Positions 25,005 through 38,876 of a stretch of DNA of 64,000 bases are shown here, piece by piece. Position numbers and translations under genes: made by a program. The notes beneath the pieces are model-generated. The model worked only from the letters and a program-made list of their open reading frames with translations, had not been told where the DNA came from and did no database searches. Position 1 is the stretch's first letter, and every line of letters begins with the position of its first letter. This stretch comes from Sporosarcina jeotgali (GTDB lineage Bacteria; Bacillota; Bacilli; Bacillales_A; Planococcaceae), in the NCBI RefSeq assembly GCF_033304595.1, contig NZ_CP116341.1, positions 1,531,001-1,595,000 of the forward strand. Reading direction: 5' to 3'.

Positions 25005-25055
25005 CAAAAAAACATCGAGATTTCAGCCATTATTGGCTCATATCTCAATGTTTTT
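25005..25055 (-). terminator. Terminator of the triple RidA gene
   Basis: On the minus strand AAAAACATTGAGAT pairs with ATCTCGATGTTTTTTT around a GCCAATAATGGC inner hairpin. Confidence 0.8.
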
Positions 25056-25119: not shown

Positions 25120-26391
25120 TTATGCTTTTGGAGGTGTTCCTTCTGCGTTGCCTGCAACTGCATCCATTTGGATCAAAGCATCATTCGGTAAAGCTGATAC
25201 GCCAACTGTTCTGCGTGCAGGCACTCCGCCTGGGAAGAACGTTTTGTAAACTTCGTCCACTGCATCCAGGTCTGCAATATTTTTAACGAAGATATTTACT
25301 TTCACTACATCTTCCAAAACGTGGTCGATGCTTTCAACAATTGCTTTAATATTATTCAAGCACTGTTCGGCTTGCTCTTTTATACCGCCAGCTACCAATT
25401 CACCCGTTTTTGGATCCAACGGCAATTGAGCTGAAAGGTGATTGTAATGAGAGAATGCTACAGTTTGAGTAGATAAAGAGCTCTTTGGTGCATTTTCTGT
25501 GTTGTTTGCCCAAATAACGATTCCATGTCTGTCTTCAATCGCTTGCGGAGGTGTGCCATCACCGTGTGATACCACTGCTTCAACTTGTACTAAAGCCCCC
25601 ATAGGTAAAGCTGCGGCTTCAACTGTTGTACGTGCAGGTACATATGCTACAGCTCTAGCGATAGCTGAATCTGGGAAAAATGTATTATAAACTTCGTTTA
25701 CAGCTTCAGTATCCGAGAGGTTTTTAAGGAAAATATTGATTTTAACAATATCGTCAAGTGGAACGTCGATGCTTTCTAAAATCGCCTTGACATTTTTCAA
25801 GCATTGTCCAGCTTGCTCTTTTGCACCGCCTGTTACCAATCTGCCCGTTTTCGGGTCGATTGGCAATTGAGCTGAAAGATTATTGTAATGAGAGAACGAC
25901 ACGGTTTGTGTTGACAATGCACAGGTTGGAGCATTTGCCGTGTTATTTGTAAGCTTAATAAGATCGCCTGCTTGAGGAACATTAGGAATTGTCCCTTCGC
26001 CGTGTGTAACTAGTGCTTCAACTTGTACCAAAGCATCCATAGGCAAAGCGGCAACTGCAACTGTAGTCCGTGAAGGGACATAAGTTGGGAAGAATGTTTT
26101 ATAAACTTCGTCTACAGCGTCAACGTCTTGAATATCCTTCACGAATACAGTAATTCTAACAATATCGCTCATGACATGGTCGATGCTGGTTACAATTGCC
26201 TTGATATTATTGAAGCACTGTTCAGCTTGTTCCCTTATACCACCTGCAACCAATTTACCAGTTTTGGGTTCAATCGGCAGTTGAGCGGATAGGTTATTGT
26301 AATGAGAGAAAGCTGCAGTTTGTGAATATAATCCGTTACCGCTTGGTGCGTTTTCGGTATTCTTTGCTGATACTGCATTGTAATTTGTCAT
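25120..26391 (-). CDS. Triple-domain RidA (YjgF/YER057c/UK114) protein
   Basis: A 423-residue protein built from three consecutive RidA domains (about 1-135, 150-280, 296-423), each alone normally 125-130 residues. Each repeats SHYN-LSAQLP-PKTG-LV-GG-EQA-QC, then I-FVKN and VY-TFFP, then PxRxTV...LP. The RidA carboxylate-binding arginine is kept in all (R108, R254, R393). The conserved glutamate of VEIEAIA is present in domains 1 and 2 (E125, E271) but is D410 in domain 3; only domain 1 retains the YSQ motif (residues 22-24). Domain 2 has a ten-residue insert before VPAR. RidA is a trimer whose active sites lie between subunits, so this chain could fold as an intramolecular trimer. The start is ATG 26391 after GGGGAATATT. 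Activity (imine/enamine deaminase) is inferred. Confidence 0.88.
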   Translation of the reverse strand: MTNYNAVSAKNTENAPSGNGLYSQTAAFSHYNNLSAQLPIEPKTGKLVAGGIREQAEQCFNNIKAIVTSIDHVMSDIVRITVFVKDIQDVDAVDEVYKTFFPTYVPSRTTVAVAALPMDALVQVEALVTHGEGTIPNVPQAGDLIKLTNNTANAPTCALSTQTVSFSHYNNLSAQLPIDPKTGRLVTGGAKEQAGQCLKNVKAILESIDVPLDDIVKINIFLKNLSDTEAVNEVYNTFFPDSAIARAVAYVPARTTVEAAALPMGALVQVEAVVSHGDGTPPQAIEDRHGIVIWANNTENAPKSSLSTQTVAFSHYNHLSAQLPLDPKTGELVAGGIKEQAEQCLNNIKAIVESIDHVLEDVVKVNIFVKNIADLDAVDEVYKTFFPGGVPARRTVGVSALPNDALIQMDAVAGNAEGTPPKA

Positions 26392-26707
26392 TAAAATATT
26401 CCCCTTTAATATGATTTTTATATACATATTTAGTAACTCATGTTTCAAACCTCAAAAAAGGCTATATTGCAAGTTCTCTTTACTGAAGAGTTCCATTGCA
26501 ATAATGAGTATTCAATCTTCGTACATATCTCCGTTAGAGCCTCTAATTCTGTATATAAAATTACCTTACCACGGAAATTTCAATAATCTATAAGTTTACG
26601 AAATTGCAAGACTTTTGAAACTGATTTTAATGTTTTTAAGTTATAACATGCGATGCGTGAAATATAAGTACACGTTTCATCTCGACAATGACAGCATAAT
26701 TAAACAG
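26392..26707. other. Upstream region of the triple RidA gene
   Basis: AT-rich DNA expected to hold the promoter. I see no coding frame with a ribosome binding site, and no clear riboswitch. Confidence 0.4.
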
Positions 26708-27150: not shown

Positions 27151-28464
<1,314 letters not shown>

Positions 28465-28473
28465 TCAAAGAAC

Positions 28474-30006
28474 TTAGTGTTTAAAGTGTCGGAAGCCTGT
28501 AAATACCATTGCGATATCGTATTCATCGGCTTTTTTAATCGAATCCTCATCACGGACAGATCCGCCTGGCTGAATAATCGCAGTAATCCCAGCTTTCGCT
28601 GCAGCTTCGACTGTATCATCCATCGGGAAAAATGCATCGGATGCAAGTGCAGCACCAGCTGCCTTCTCACCTGCTTGCGCGAGCGCGATGTTTGCTGCAC
28701 CGACGCGGTTCATCTGTCCTGCGCCAATCCCATAGGTCATCTGTTCCCCGCTAACGACAATCGCATTAGACTTCACGTGTTTCACAACTTTCCACCCTAA
28801 TTTCAATGCCGCCCATTCTTTTTCAGAAGGCTCGCGTTTAGTAGGAATTGAGAGTGCTGCCTGATCGAAACCATCTGTATCTAAATCCTGAATCAGTAAT
28901 CCGCCTTGGATCGAAGTAGTCTTTTTCTCTTTTTTCAGTTCTCCTTCAAAATCGACAGTCAGCAGGCGAATATTCTTCTTAGCCGTTAAAACTTCTAATG
29001 CATCCTTCGTAAATGATGGTGCAATGATGATTTCTAAAAAAATTTCTTTTAGCAGTGCTGCTGTTTCTGCATCTACTTCACGATTCAATGCGATGATTCC
29101 GCCGAAAATCGATGTCGAGTCTGCTTCGTAAGCCTTTCTGAATGCTTCAGCAAGTGTTTCACCGACTCCCACCCCGCATGGATTCATATGCTTCACTGCA
29201 ACTGCCGCGGGCTGATCAAAGTCACGGACGATGAGCAGTGCTGCGTCTGCATCATTAATATTGTTGTAAGATAGCTCTTTGCCATGTAACTGAGTAGCAT
29301 AGGCTACAGAAAATGTTGAGCCTAACGGTTTCTGGTAAAATGAAGCTCGTTGATGAGGGTTTTCTCCGTATCGAAGTGATTGTTTTAAGTTATAAGTCAG
29401 CGTTACGCTTTCAGGGTTTTCTTCTTCTGCAAGTTTTGTCATATACTCAGAAATAGCTGCATCGTAGGCAGCTGTATGACGGAATACCTTTGCCGCAAGC
29501 TGGCGTTTTTTCTGCCCAGAAACTTCACCGTTTTCTGAAAGCTGAGCGAGTAAGATGTCATAATCTGACGGATCTACAACGACTGTTACGAATTCGTGGT
29601 TTTTTGCAGCAGAACGCAGCATTGTCGGGCCGCCAATGTCGATGTTTTCAATCGCTTCATCAGGAGTGACGTCAGGTTTTGAAATGGTATGCTGAAATGG
29701 ATATAAATTGACGCAAACTAAATCGATCGGCTGAATATGATGCTCTGCTAATTGTGCGAGGTGTGCGTCATCATTTCTTTTGGCTAATAATCCGCCATGA
29801 ACATTCGGATGCAGTGTTTTCACTCTGCCGTCCATAATTTCAGGGAATTTCGTGATTTCCTCAATCCCAATCACTTCTATTCCTTTTTCAGCCAGCGTTT
29901 TCTTTGTCCCTCCAGTAGATACAAGTTCATAACCTGCCTCTCTTAAGCCTTTCGCAAACTCAACAATCCCTGTTTTATCTGACACACTAAGCAATGCACG
30001 TTTCAT
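28474..30006 (-). CDS. purH: AICAR transformylase / IMP cyclohydrolase
   Basis: A 510-residue bifunctional enzyme for the last two steps to IMP. The N-terminal IMP cyclohydrolase (about 1-195) opens [20 protein letters not shown] with STGGTKKTL and [15 protein letters not shown]. The C-terminal AICAR transformylase (about 200-510) has [12 protein letters not shown] with the catalytic lysine-histidine pair, LRYGENPHQ and SDAFFPMDD. It formylates AICAR with 10-formyl-THF, then closes the ring. GGGAGGAAAATTCGG precedes the ATG. A 72-base gap separates it from purN. Confidence 0.97.
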
Positions 30007-30078
30007 CCGAATTTTCCTCCCTGTATATGCGCGATTGTGTTATCTATCCCTTACTGATTCAATGACTTTCCATGAAAA

Positions 30079-30666
30079 TTACGGAGCAGCATTCGTTGTT
30101 TCCTTGGTGAACAGCTCCTGGAGTACTTTGGGGTAGCAGATATGCTCTGCTTGTTGAATTCGTTTTTGTACATCAACTATTGAATCATTTGCATGTATCT
30201 GAACTTTGGTTTGAGCAATAATTGGACCTGTATCCATACCTGCATCGACATAATGTATAGTCAAACCAGTTACTTGAACACCGGCATTCATTGCTTGCCC
30301 GATAGCATCTTTCCCTGGAAAAGCCGGCAATAAGGATGGATGGATATTAACAATTGACGCTGGATATTCCTGCAGAATTGGAGATCCAATCAGTCGCATA
30401 TATCCAGCCAGCACAATGAATTCAATGCCTCGTAATCTGAGCTGCTGCACAATTTCCTTTTCAAATGCTGTTTTGTCAGCGAAATCTTTAGGAGACAGGC
30501 AACAGCTGTCAATCATTGCTTTTTGAGCTCTTTGCAAAACAGCCGCAGATGGTTGATCACAAACTAACAATCGGATATCGGCATCCAGCGTGCCAGCGTT
30601 AACTGCATCCACTATTGCTTGGAAGTTGCTGCCGCTCCCTGAAGCGAATACGGCAATTCTTTTCAT
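30079..30666 (-). CDS. purN: Phosphoribosylglycinamide formyltransferase
   Basis: A 195-residue enzyme that transfers formyl from 10-formyl-THF to GAR (step 3). [17 protein letters not shown] is the phosphate-binding start, and the catalytic N-H-D set is in [15 protein letters not shown] (about 106-120) and [13 protein letters not shown] (about 137-149). AGGTG leads the ATG, which overlaps the purM stop by four bases. Length equals the B. subtilis enzyme. Confidence 0.97.
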
Positions 30667-31697
30667 GATTCACCTATGAACGTGACACCGGATTGATTGA
30701 CAACTTTCCCGATTCGATAGGCTTGTTCGCCATGCCTTTCAAAAAAAGCAACGAGTTCATCGGCTGATGCCTCATTCACTGCAAGCGCCATTCCAATCCC
30801 CATATTAAAAATATTGTACATATCCTCTCGAGGGATATTCCCAGTCTCTTCTATTAGACGGAATATAGGATGGATTTCCCAAGAACCAGACTGGATTTCC
30901 ACTCCTAAATCTCCTGGCATCATTCTAGGGAGGTTTTCAATGAATCCGCCACCCGTGATATGGGCCATTCCTTTAATTTCAAACTCTTTCAATGCAGCTA
31001 AAATTGACTTTACGTAAATCTTCGTAGGCTTTAAGAGTTCTTCTCCCAATTTACAGCCGAGTTCAGGCATGAATTCAGAGAGGTCCAGTTCTGCATCTTC
31101 TAACAAAATTTTGCGCACTAGTGAATAACCGTTACTGTGAATGCCGCTTGAAGCCAGTCCGATCATGCAATCGCCTGCTTGAATGTTTTTACCAGTAATC
31201 AAATCTTTTTTCTCACATGCACCTACTGTAAAACCTGCTAAGTCATACTCTTCTTCATTGTATAGTCCGGGCATTTCTGCTGTTTCACCGCCGATTAATG
31301 CGCATCCTGCTTGGCCACAACCATCCGAGACTCCTTTTACGATACTTTCAATTTTTTCAGGTGCTGCTTTCCCGCAGGCAATGTAGTCTAAAAAATACAG
31401 AGGTTCTGCACCTTGTACGATAATATCGTTCACACACATAGCAACACAGTCGATGCCGATACTCTCATGCTGATCCAACATCATCGCAAGTAAAAGCTTC
31501 GTTCCTACTCCATCTGTACCTGAAACAAGTACCGGTTCACGTAAGTTTAGCTGGGATAAATCAAACATTCCGCCGAATCCGCCAAGTCCGCTCAGTACTT
31601 GCGGCCGCATCGTTTTCTGTACATGTTTTTTCATGCGAGAGACAGCTTCGTATCCTGCTTCAATGTCTACTCCCGCCGATTTGTATGCATTTGACAT
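30663..31697 (-). CDS. purM: Phosphoribosylformylglycinamidine cyclo-ligase (AIR synthetase)
   Basis: A 344-residue enzyme that closes FGAM to AIR with ATP (step 5). Start [33 protein letters not shown] (about 59-72) is the ATP-binding loop, GGETAEMPG and [14 protein letters not shown] follow. AAGGAG precedes the ATG. ATGA overlap with purN shows coupled translation. Confidence 0.97.
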
Positions 31698-31715
31698 GGA
31701 TTAGGTCTCCTTCAC

Positions 31716-33128
31716 TCAGCATTTTATGAAATCTATTTCTTGATCGGAATAGATTTCAGTAGGATACTTTCCGTTAAAGCACGCGAGACACTGCCCTCGG
31801 TTTTCCCCTTCAAACGGTCTTCCTATCGCTTCGACTGTGCCCTCAACACTTAAAAATGTGAGAGAGTCCGCTCCAATAAGTTCACGGATTTCTTCAACAG
31901 ATTTTTTAGCGGCAATCAACTCATCTTTATCGGAAGTGTCAATCCCGTAAAAACATGGATTTTTAATAGGTGGCGAGCTGATGAGGACATGGACTTCTGT
32001 CGCGCCCGCCTCTTTCAACATTTGCACGATCCTCTTGCTGGTCGTGCCGCGGACAATCGAATCGTCCACCATGACAACTCTTTTTCCTTCAACAACCCCG
32101 CGAACAGGAGACAGTTTCATTTTCACACCTTGTTCTCTTAACGATTGAGAAGGCTGAATGAATGTCCGTCCGACATAACGATTTTTCAGTAAGCCCATTT
32201 CGTATGGTATGCCGCTTGCTTCCGCATATCCGATTGCTGCGGAATTGCCGGAGTCAGGAACACCTGTCACAACATCCGCTTCAATTAATTTTTCAACAGC
32301 GAGCTGCTTGCCAAGATTTTTGCGTGCTGTATGAACATTAATGCTATCAATGTTGCTATCAGGACGAGAAAAGTATACATACTCCATCGTACACATGGAA
32401 CGTTGTTTGCAAGCGGCGAACCGTTCACTCGTGATTCCCTCATCATTAATAATCAGCAGTTCTCCTGGTTCAATATCCCGGAGAAAATCCGCTCCTACAA
32501 TATCCAGCGCACACGTTTCGGATGCAACAACATAAGCGTCACCAAGCAGCCCAAGGGATAAAGGTCTGAGTCCGTTCGGATCCATTGCAACGAACAGTTC
32601 AGATTCCGTCATGATTAAGTACGCATAAGCACCTTGCAGTGTGTTCAGTCCAGTTTTGATACGTTCTTTCAACTCTGAAGAACCGCCTTTTCGAATCAAA
32701 TGTGCGAGAACTTCGGTATCTGATGTACTATGAAAAATACTGCCTTGTGCTTCCAGCTGCGATTTCAACTGATCCGCATTCAAGATGTTTCCATTGTGAG
32801 CCATCGCCATTGATTCATTTTGAAAGTTAAATAACAGTGGCTGGACGTTTTCGTACCCTCCTCCGCCCGCCGTTGTATAGCGGACGTGGCCAATTGCTGC
32901 ATTTCCAGACAACGTCTGCATTTTCTCTGCAGTGAGGACTTCCGTTACTAATCCTTCACCTTTTTCACTGAACAGCTTTCCGTCTTTCGCTAAAACCATC
33001 CCTGTTCCTTCTTGCCCCCGATGCTGCAGGCTGTGCAATCCGTAATAGGTTACTTGCGCAGCATCCGGGTGTCCCCAGATGCCAAACAAGCCACACTCCT
33101 CATTTAATCCCTTTAGTTCAGCAAGCAT
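31716..33128 (-). CDS. purF: Amidophosphoribosyltransferase
   Basis: A 470-residue enzyme for the first committed step (PRPP plus glutamine to phosphoribosylamine). The chain begins [19 protein letters not shown]: an 11-residue propeptide is expected to be removed to expose Cys12 as N-terminal nucleophile, as in B. subtilis. The PRPP loop is [14 protein letters not shown] (about 345-358). Cysteines in [10 protein letters not shown] and [10 protein letters not shown] fit the 4Fe-4S cluster seen in the Bacillus enzyme. Start ATG 33128 is taken over one six codons upstream because of the conserved propeptide; it overlaps purL by 16 bases. Confidence 0.97.
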
Positions 33129-35332
33129 GGAATCGCACCTTTCCAAGCCTGCTCTAATGTTGGAACACTTGTCTCGATCAACAGTCCGTCTTGCTCATGG
33201 GAAATGGTCAAGTGATTATTATTCGTGACCGTCCCAATACACCTGGCATCCTGAACAATTCTTTCAAAAACATCTCGTTGTTCAGGGGCAACCGATACAA
33301 CAAATCTGGATTGTGTTTCACTGAATAATTCCGTAACTGCTTCCATGTGAACAATAATACGAGCGCCCAAATTTGTTCCAAAAAGTGATTCTGACAATGC
33401 TACTGCCAGACCGCCTTCTGAGAGATCGTGAGCCGAAGCGACACATCCCTTTTGGATGGCTCTTAACAGCTGTTGCTGGCGCAGCTTTTCCAATTCCAAG
33501 TTAATAGAAGGAGATTTACCGAAGATTTTTCCTTCCGTCATTTTTTGTAACTCACTGCCCCCGAATTCTGTTTTCGCATCCCCGATAACATAAATCAGAT
33601 CGCCTGAATTTTTGAACTCCTGCGTTGTAATATGAGTGAGATCTTTTATAAGACCTACCATTCCAATAACAGGTGTCGGATAAATCGCTTCACCATTTGT
33701 TTCATTATAGAGAGATACGTTGCCTCCAATAACTGGCGTACTCAAAACTTTGCACGCTTCACTAATTCCATCTGCCGCTTTCTCGATTTGCCAGAAAATC
33801 TCCGGCTTTTCAGGATTACCAAAGTTCAAATTGTCCGTAACCGCTAATGGTTCTGCTCCTGAACATACGATATTGCGAGCAGCTTCAGCCACAGCAATTT
33901 TCCCTCCAACTTCTGGATCCAGGTGAAGATAACGGGCATTACAATCTGTGGTCATGGCTAACGCCTTGTTCGTTTCGCGAATTCGTACAACAGCCGCGTC
34001 GGAACCTGGAGGGACAACTGTATTCGTCCTCACCATAGTATCGAACTGATTATAAACCCACTCTTTACTTGCAATTGTGGGCTGTGAAAGCAAACCAACT
34101 AAAGTTTCCTTGTAGTCATCAACCATGGGCGCAACGTTTTCCATTCCTTTAAAGTCTCGGAAATATTGTGGTTCAGTAGAGGGTTTGTAGTAAACGGGTG
34201 CTTCTTCTACCAATGCATCCACTGGAACGTTTGCAACAACTTCACCTTTATGAGTAAGTTTCAGCATCTTCTCTTCTGTAACAAAACCGACAGCTACTGC
34301 CTCAAGATCATATTTCGAAAATAGAGTTGCAATTTCTTGTTCGCTTCCCTTTTTAACGACAATAAGCATTCTCTCTTGAGATTCTGATAGCATCATTTCA
34401 TAAGCAGTCATTCCGGGTTCACGCTGAGGTACCAGGTCAAGATTCATCTCAATTCCCATCCCTGCTTTACAAGCCATCTCCGCAGACGAACTTGTAAGAC
34501 CTGCTGCCCCCATATCCTGGATCCCAACAAGTGCTTCATGCTGAATCAGCTCAAGGCAAGCTTCCATTAGCAGTTTTTCTAAGAAAGGATCTCCAACTTG
34601 AACTGCCGGACGATTTCCTTCAGACGAATCCGTCAATTCTTCCGATGCAAAAGTGGCTCCATGAATGCCATCACGACCTGTTTTCGCTCCAACATGCATG
34701 ACACTATTGCCGGCTCCGCGGGCTTGACCTTTTTGAATATCTTCATGATTGATCAACCCGACGCACATGGCATTGACTAATGGATTCCCCTCGTAAGAAG
34801 GATCGAATTGAATTTCGCCGCCGACTGTCGGAATGCCGATACAATTCCCGTAACCGCCAATTCCTGCAACTACTTCTTTAAACAAGTACTTCACACGAGC
34901 ACTTTCCAATTCACCGAAACGAAGGGAGTTCAATAGTGCGATAGGCCGGGCACCCATTGAAAACACATCACGGATAATCCCGCCGACTCCAGTTGCTGCA
35001 CCTTGATAGGGTTCAATTGCAGATGGGTGATTGTGACTCTCGATTTTGAAAACGACGGCTTGCCCATCACCAATGTCAACAATTCCTGCACCTTCCCCCG
35101 GTCCTTGAAGCACGTGTTCCCCCGAAGTTGGGAATTTTTTTAATATAGGCTTGGAATTTTTATAGGAACAGTGCTCTGACCACATGACGGAAAACAAACC
35201 TGTTTCGGTATAATTAGGTGTGCGTCCTAGCATATTTTCAACCATTGCAAACTCTTCGTCTGTCAGACCCATAGCTGCATATTCACGCTGTGATTTAATC
35301 ATTTCCGGACTTGGCTCAAGCAGTAACGACAT
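33113..35332 (-). CDS. purL: Phosphoribosylformylglycinamidine synthase subunit PurL
   Basis: A 739-residue synthetase subunit (step 4: FGAR to FGAM with ATP and ammonia). [40 protein letters not shown], and [11 protein letters not shown] define the first half; [15 protein letters not shown] and [14 protein letters not shown] the second. This is the small-type PurL that works with PurS and PurQ, whose genes are directly upstream. GGAGGGAAAGTT precedes the start; overlaps purQ by 17 bases. Confidence 0.97.
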
Positions 35333-38727: not shown

Positions 38728-38784
38728 TGGATAAGTTGCCTTTTACAAAAAAGGACAGACTGATCCTAAGTAAAGGGTGCACTT

Positions 38785-38857
38785 TCTCTCATAGTCCGAT
38801 AATTTACGGTTATCGGGTAGAAACGTTCGGGCCATATTCCCGGAGATATATGAGAGA
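38785..38857 (-). ncRNA. Guanine-sensing purine riboswitch aptamer
   Basis: On the minus strand P1 is CTCTCATA/TATGAGAG; P2 CGGG-AATATGG-CCCG; J2/3 contains GTTTCTAC; P3 CCGATA-ACCGTAAAT-TATCGG; J3/1 is ACTATG. L2 ATATGG and L3 CCGTAAA can form the loop-loop contact. The discriminating base before TATG is C, which selects guanine/hypoxanthine rather than adenine. When guanine binds, P1 forms and the downstream terminator folds. Confidence 0.95.
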
Positions 38858-38876
38858 TATAAGTAAGTTCGTAATC

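Follow-up and report, generated by a model that had tools for sequence, protein, structure and literature searches.

A single-chain triple RidA protein (3x-RidA) of Sporosarcina jeotgali with a predicted closed ring and altered, unequal pockets

RidA is a small domain that detoxifies metabolites. Proteins in which three RidA domains are joined in one polypeptide have been named 3x-RidA, with EF_0115 of Enterococcus faecalis as an example, and are presumed, in the excerpted text of that report, to be covalently linked trimers (Niehaus et al., 2015; PMC4433059), the only paper in the open-access PubMed Central (PMC) literature in which we found the name. Ordinary RidA/YjgF/TdcF proteins are trimers of three chains, and seven pocket residues are given as totally conserved among them in the excerpted text of the TdcF paper (PMC1884159). 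The protein considered here is encoded on the minus strand at positions 25120..26391 of a 64,000-nucleotide stretch of the Sporosarcina jeotgali genome (contig NZ_CP116341.1, positions 1,531,001 to 1,595,000; the whole stretch analysed is referred to as the window). A preliminary description made from the sequence alone had proposed that it is a built-in pseudotrimer; prediction supports the idea, which was already in print, and the window protein belongs to 3x-RidA, a kind known since 2015. Its architecture shows no difference from that described by Niehaus et al., whereas the pocket signature, single origin, spread and regulation discussed below are absent from that description as excerpted.

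The 423-residue chain matches PF01042 in three stretches (summing to 257 bits, cut-off 27.3) and TIGR00004, also in three, at 297 bits against a cut-off of 106, a score that places it in the RidA subfamily and bears out the three domains read initially from the sequence. Domain 1 (residues 9-135; 25987..26367) carries Y-S-Q, R108 and E125, domain 2 (residues 147-281; 25549..25953) carries S-T-Q, R254, E271 and an insert at 241-248, and domain 3 (residues 293-420; 25132..25515) carries S-T-Q, R393-R394 and D410, all on the minus strand, as are the linkers between domains 1 and 2 (residues 136-146; 25954..25986) and domains 2 and 3 (residues 282-292; 25516..25548). Pairwise identity between the domains is 63.1, 67.4 and 65.9% in protein, 71.5-72.9% in DNA, where similarity between the units had been noticed before, and 50-55% at third codon positions. 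Among 94 aligned triples, which are 62-93% identical to the window protein, chain length varies from 415 to 428 residues and is exactly 423 in 69. The eight-residue insert of domain 2, D-S-A-I-A-R-A-V, hardly varies (92 of the 94 have R246) and is absent from two proteobacterial triples (L128 and L129). The window genome additionally encodes one ordinary single RidA.

The pockets are altered in all three domains and, on comparison of residues across the 94 triples and 16 single RidAs, unequal among them. The singles, all from Bacillota-side searches, keep every one of the seven pocket residues of the TdcF paper. All three window domains have the equivalents of Asn-56, Arg-105 and Pro-114, and the substrate arginine expected of a RidA is found at R108, R254 and R393, as first proposed; the arginine is present in 88, 87 and 93 of the 94 triples in domains 1, 2 and 3, respectively, and the proline in 94, 86 and 64. 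The remaining four positions differ from ordinary RidA. Gly-31 is Ala in every window domain (residues 36, 174 and 321), and in 93, 94 and 85 of the triples (Gly persists in nine, in domain 3). Tyr-17 is kept in window domain 1 only, within Y-S-Q at residues 22-24, with Ser in the other two (S-T-Q at 160-162 and 307-309), and is Tyr in 74, none and six of the triples. Asn-88 is replaced by Asp in domains 1 and 3 but kept in domain 2 (Asp in 81, 5 and 85 triples), and Glu-120, represented by Glu125 and Glu271 in domains 1 and 2, is Asp410 in domain 3; across the triples it is Glu in 88 and 90 in the first two domains and Asp in 94/94 in the third. The confinement of Y-S-Q to domain 1, the aspartate of domain 3 and the resulting inequality of the interfaces had all been anticipated in the preliminary description.

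What that description overlooked, in an interpretation otherwise supported as to divergence and, by prediction, as to pseudotrimer, is a change common to the three domains. In addition to the Gly-31 to Ala replacement, each carries the motif S-H-Y-N, at residues 29-32 (26296..26307), 167-170 (25882..25893) and 314-317 (25441..25452), all on the minus strand, and the His, Tyr and Asn are each present in 94/94 triples at every one of the three sites, a stricter conservation than that of the arginine. Residue 32 of this strand is hydrophobic in 16/16 singles and Asn in every domain of all 94 triples. Residue 33 is aromatic (Phe or Tyr) in 16/16 singles; among the triples, 92 have Asn there in domain 1 and 82 in domain 2 (where 11 have Tyr), and 90 have His in domain 3. 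On sequence comparison, then, the common change is stricter than the Arg, Tyr and Glu differences by which the domains are told apart. A triple of E. faecalis lying outside the 94 (WP_002367615.1, from a plasmid record; the comparison rests on this protein, the EF_0115 sequence itself being outside it) is 70.8% identical to the window protein and has S-H-Y-N three times, with Lys for the domain 1 arginine and Glu in domain 3, so that the Arg and Asp features belong to lineages and not to all 3x-RidAs. In three proteobacterial members (L126, L127 and L128), Glu-120 is replaced by Asp in every domain. We found no description of pocket remodelling across the three domains in the open-access PMC literature.

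The structure prediction proposed in the preliminary description supports the built-in pseudotrimer. AlphaFold2, run on the single chain with the 94 triples, gave a mean predicted local distance difference test score (pLDDT) of 86.3 and a predicted template modelling score (pTM) of 0.89, superseding an earlier run with 45 triples (73.9 and 0.80); with pTM high across three domains, the positions of these relative to one another are confidently predicted. By VIA-align 2, residues 29-414 of the model superpose on chorismatase 4bps with Z 27.2 and 2.8 Å over 288 residues, and the best single RidA follows below chorismatase among the matches listed (Z 23.1, 1.2 Å, 132 residues); chorismatase also led with the first model (Z 21.7 against 18.8). 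The pTM together with this whole-chain match makes a ring closed within one chain the predicted fold. The linkers of the model are uncertain, with low pLDDT (below 50 at 136-142) over residues 136-142 and most of 278-291, a region that includes much of the conserved second linker (also below 50). Residues 276-290 (H-G-D-G-T-P-P-Q..E-D-R-H) are among the most conserved stretches of the chain, yet are modelled with low confidence, as though they bound something. A sequence search of the PDB (E up to 0.001) returned 49 chains, none above 165 residues, and hence no fused RidA chain.

The preliminary description had taken the likeness of the units for duplication followed by divergence, and the domain tree agrees. 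This tree comprises 66 domains from 22 triples and 17 singles, and with 125 columns leaves many forks open. All 66 triple domains lie on one side of a branch with a Shimodaira-Hasegawa-like approximate likelihood ratio (SH-aLRT) support of 100; the domain 2 rows group together (22/22, support 87), as do the domain 3 rows (22/22, support 93), and the domain 1 rows form a grade. A single triplication preceding the spread of the gene fits this topology best. The presence of both S-H-Y-N and the Ala replacement in each of the three domains further suggests alteration of the pocket ahead of the fusion. We considered an extant single-domain S-H-Y-N RidA as a candidate for the ancestor and set it aside: a profile search of 299 genomes of Pseudomonadota, the sole phylum so searched, recovered none. 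There, all 18 matches at E <1e-55 fell within frames of 437-495 amino acids, and the next two (about 1e-31) were ordinary RidAs. Across 160 loci, each frame containing S-H-Y-N-x-x-[SAT]-[AG]-Q has the motif three times, except L019, which has it twice. A 442-amino-acid frame elsewhere (G054:C17:85680-86693) contains two weak, diverged Rid-like stretches and is perhaps a different multi-Rid protein.

The distribution of 3x-RidA is patchy. A species-genome scan built on short peptides of the window protein, and biased to close relatives for that reason, yielded 155 stretches, and the best 80 of these all match residues 1-423 or 4/5-423 at 78-93% identity; the sources are Bacillota, Flavobacterium and its kin, Holophagaceae, a Krumholzibacteriia bin, Nitrosomonas and a Desulfovibrionaceae bin. 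Within its own genus the gene is present in 16/37 genomes, the window genome included. In phylum counts at E up to 1e-40 it was found in 9/398 genomes of its own phylum (the window genome included), 7/398 of the phylum of the Nitrosomonas genome (that genome included), 1/247 of the phylum of Flavobacterium (the centre genome itself) and 2/149 of the phylum of Holophagaceae (one being the centre genome). Two distinct 3x-RidA genes occur in one Holophagaceae genome (G457; L134 and L136), with 79% and 74% identity to the window's.

PurH, which served as a control, was found in 20/21 genomes (G008 had no match within the limit applied). In G007, G010 and G020 the identities are 93, 92 and 93% for PurH and 93, 92 and 92% for the triple, whereas in Neobacillus novalis the values are 73% for PurH and 90% for the triple, in Clostridium aminobutyricum 56% and 86%, in Flavobacterium 43% and 82% and in Nitrosomonas 50% and 78%. 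In a gene tree of 76 rows, the sequences from the window's own genus are divided among three or more distinct starred sets, and rows from other phyla are interspersed with those of Bacillota, a placement that the starred branches alone do not force: 14 of the 73 inner branches are starred, these require at most one change for Bacillota, and several changes on such a tree are no proof of transfer. The gene also occurs in 12 plasmid records, of Enterococcus, Vibrio and Photobacterium. These comparisons make horizontal transfer the likely cause of the patchy spread. In an IMG/VR contig (L138), about 1 kb separates a 3x-RidA gene from a gene for a phage-type integrase, at a possible integration site, and the 3x-RidA protein encoded there is identical to that of a Mesobacillus zeae locus (L080). 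Phage as a vehicle was rejected: two phage records were without annotation and the one inspected is marked unverified, so that host DNA is likely.

We hypothesize that 3x-RidA is a closed single-chain protein with unequal clefts, likely to hydrolyse imines or enamines with a shifted range, and consider this, taken as a whole, a probable explanation, though by no means a secure one. Our current working hypothesis is that a single-domain RidA, in which the pocket-side strand had already been altered (Gly-31 to Ala, with S-H-Y-N), was triplicated once, and that the triple then passed between bacteria, probably by horizontal transfer. The three domains would close on each other within the chain, forming the barrel that ordinary RidA builds from three chains, with three chemically unequal clefts between domains, each with a carboxylate-binding arginine. 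These clefts would hydrolyse small carboxylate-bearing imines or enamines, at unequal rates and with changed specificity, and the protein would act alongside the cell's ordinary single RidA. Imine/enamine hydrolysis is most likely retained because the substrate arginine is present in all three domains; the substrate range may have shifted, and the original RidA job is perhaps not kept exactly. Several observations weigh against this hypothesis. The open-access PMC literature yielded no structure, assay or activity report of a 3x-RidA. The pocket residues of the TdcF paper are kept in 5/7, 5/7 and 3/7 cases in domains 1, 2 and 3, and the arginine itself is replaced by Gln, Leu or Lys in domain 1 of 6/94 triples and by Val, Leu, Met or Gln in domain 2 of 7/94. 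Ring closure is predicted from a monomer, and Foldseek ranked chorismatase 45th by E-value (5th with the first model); over 369 columns the TM score by target length was 0.59, with a root-mean-square deviation of 7.8. A slow, strongly constrained gene could account for the high identities instead of transfer, an alternative that we do not favour.

The strictness of S-H-Y-N (His, Tyr and Asn in 94/94 triples in all domains, above the arginine) and the change of positions 32 and 33 from hydrophobic or aromatic to polar (Asn or His), with Gly-31 mostly Ala, would also be expected if imine hydrolysis had been abandoned and the fusion of RidA units had given rise to a different enzyme or binder with its site around the S-H-Y-N sets. 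The cyanuric acid hydrolase AtzD offers a precedent for such an outcome from concatenated YjgF-like units (PMC3758960, as excerpted), and the MerR/GyrI-like regulator and operator-like site described below for some Clostridia-type loci suggest a response to a small molecule. Even so, the Arg-105 equivalents are largely retained in the three domains and the profile scores are well above the RidA cut-off (TIGR00004), and we regard this outcome as possible but unlikely. Put forward tentatively, as speculation, is a fuller scenario in which 3x-RidA would be a young enzyme at a stage intermediate between homotrimer and new single-chain enzyme: the S-H-Y-N strand would predate fusion, the three His-Tyr-Asn sets would make up a separate site, perhaps close to the end or the axis of the barrel, and specialisation after fusion, a chemistry other than 2-aminoacrylate hydrolysis, horizontal spread and, in some Clostridia, a MerR/GyrI-like switch would complete it. 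Retention of the arginine is also in keeping with an ordinary linked RidA in which the only effect of fusion is greater stability or a higher local concentration, the pocket changes being neutral, and the Asp for Glu-120 in all domains of L126, L127 and L128 shows that some change is tolerated; neutral changes would drift, however, and the common ones persist across relatives at 62-93% identity, which makes this account improbable. It is very improbable that the chain does not close on itself and that three chains combine into a nine-domain assembly made of one or more intermolecular trimers. The low-confidence linkers and the modelling of a monomer only would allow it, but the pTM of 0.89, the whole-chain chorismatase match and the narrow range of chain lengths argue otherwise.

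We found no conserved operon partner of 3x-RidA: 101 of the 155 immediate neighbours at 80 loci fall in no shared cluster. Two neighbour clusters recur five times, a MerR gene found in four organism groups and a cluster of Psychrobacillus (three) and Sporosarcina (two), and two recur three times, in Flavobacterium only. A divergent MerR/GyrI-like regulator gene adjoins five Clostridia-type loci (L066, L069, L088, L093 and L099), and 5/5 of the intergenic regions beside it contain a -35/-10 pair with a 19-base spacer, a spacing typical of MerR operators. This operator-like site, which precedes Clostridia-type 3x-RidA genes, consists of TTGAC, the 19-base spacer and TATGAT or similar, and is found also upstream of L085, L081, L103, L102, L090 and L096. 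Counting the five that match by construction, 11/98 triples have at least 22 of its 31 positions upstream, the best of 490 mononucleotide shuffles reaching 20; the window gene, at 15/31, is without the site. In a 747-kb plasmid record of E. faecalis (L137), the 3x-RidA gene lies two to four genes from a pyridoxal phosphate-dependent aminotransferase-family gene and from ornithine cyclodeaminase-family and PhzF-family genes.

The coding frame itself (423 codons and a stop) starts with the ATG at 26391 and ends at 25120. This ATG, preceded by a Shine-Dalgarno-like AAAGGGGA (26400..26407, minus strand; read from the sequence), was preferred to a longer TTG start at 26448, and similar A-rich GGGG, GGGA or GGAG elements precede the start codon in relatives. 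Internal starts yielding single domains, which the preliminary description had named as evidence against a pseudotrimer, were looked for without any sign of them. Met occurs at residues 1, 74, 118, 264 and 409 only, hence not at the domain borders, and no Shine-Dalgarno sequence was seen in the 20 bases preceding the in-frame TTG and GTG codons near those borders (121, 159, 164 and 273); among the 94 triples, any Met is present at residues 130-165 in four and at 276-312 in six. Upstream, a conserved noncoding leader (a T-run, CGGTGCATACTTGAGTTA..TAAATATTTATCTAAAAGGGGAATAC and the start codon) is shared across genera by 20 chosen Bacillales loci, of Bacillaceae and Sporosarcina type, and is kept although the neighbouring genes differ; the window variant lies at 26392-26460. 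A small hairpin ahead of the T-run is not preserved in pairing in every row, and Rfam gave no family at gathering score over gene and leader in the window or in 11 related loci. Downstream, at 25012..25051 on the minus strand, is an imperfect, terminator-like hairpin (17-base arms with 14/17 Watson-Crick pairs, a 6-base loop) followed by six T, which a consensus scan did not list. Elsewhere in the window are purine synthesis genes (27151-33146) and an ordinary purine riboswitch (38772-38873, minus strand).

The window protein has the domain fold of RidA/YjgF/TdcF (Z up to 23.1) and differs from these proteins in its single chain and in the pocket positions discussed above. The replacement, in every domain, of a RidA residue that is sterically kept calls for caution in labelling 3x-RidAs as plain imine deaminases. 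Chorismatase (4bps, 5ag3, 5a3k) is likewise a single chain, a pseudotrimer of RidA-like units, and a far-diverged product of a RidA-like trimer; it is 12-14% identical to the window protein, the comparison being one of fold and not of catalytic residues, and chorismate chemistry belongs to chorismatase. The excerpted text on AtzD, of the AtzD/barbiturase ('Toblerone') fold, describes a second far-diverged case, a single chain thought to derive from three concatenated YjgF-family units, of which one shares about 16.5% identity with a RidA-like protein, with a new function acquired via concatenation and an active site inside the barrel, where Ser-Lys dyads are found (PMC3758960). The window protein has no AtzD-type Pfam match, and AtzD is not among the 50 fold matches listed. 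3x-RidA would represent the same kind of event as AtzD with domains that are still 63-67% identical, so that the change from homotrimer to asymmetric chain is directly testable by residue swaps between domains. The conserved pocket change, of which we found no description in print, makes 3x-RidA a good test of how a homotrimer evolves into a single-chain protein of the kind represented by AtzD and chorismatase.
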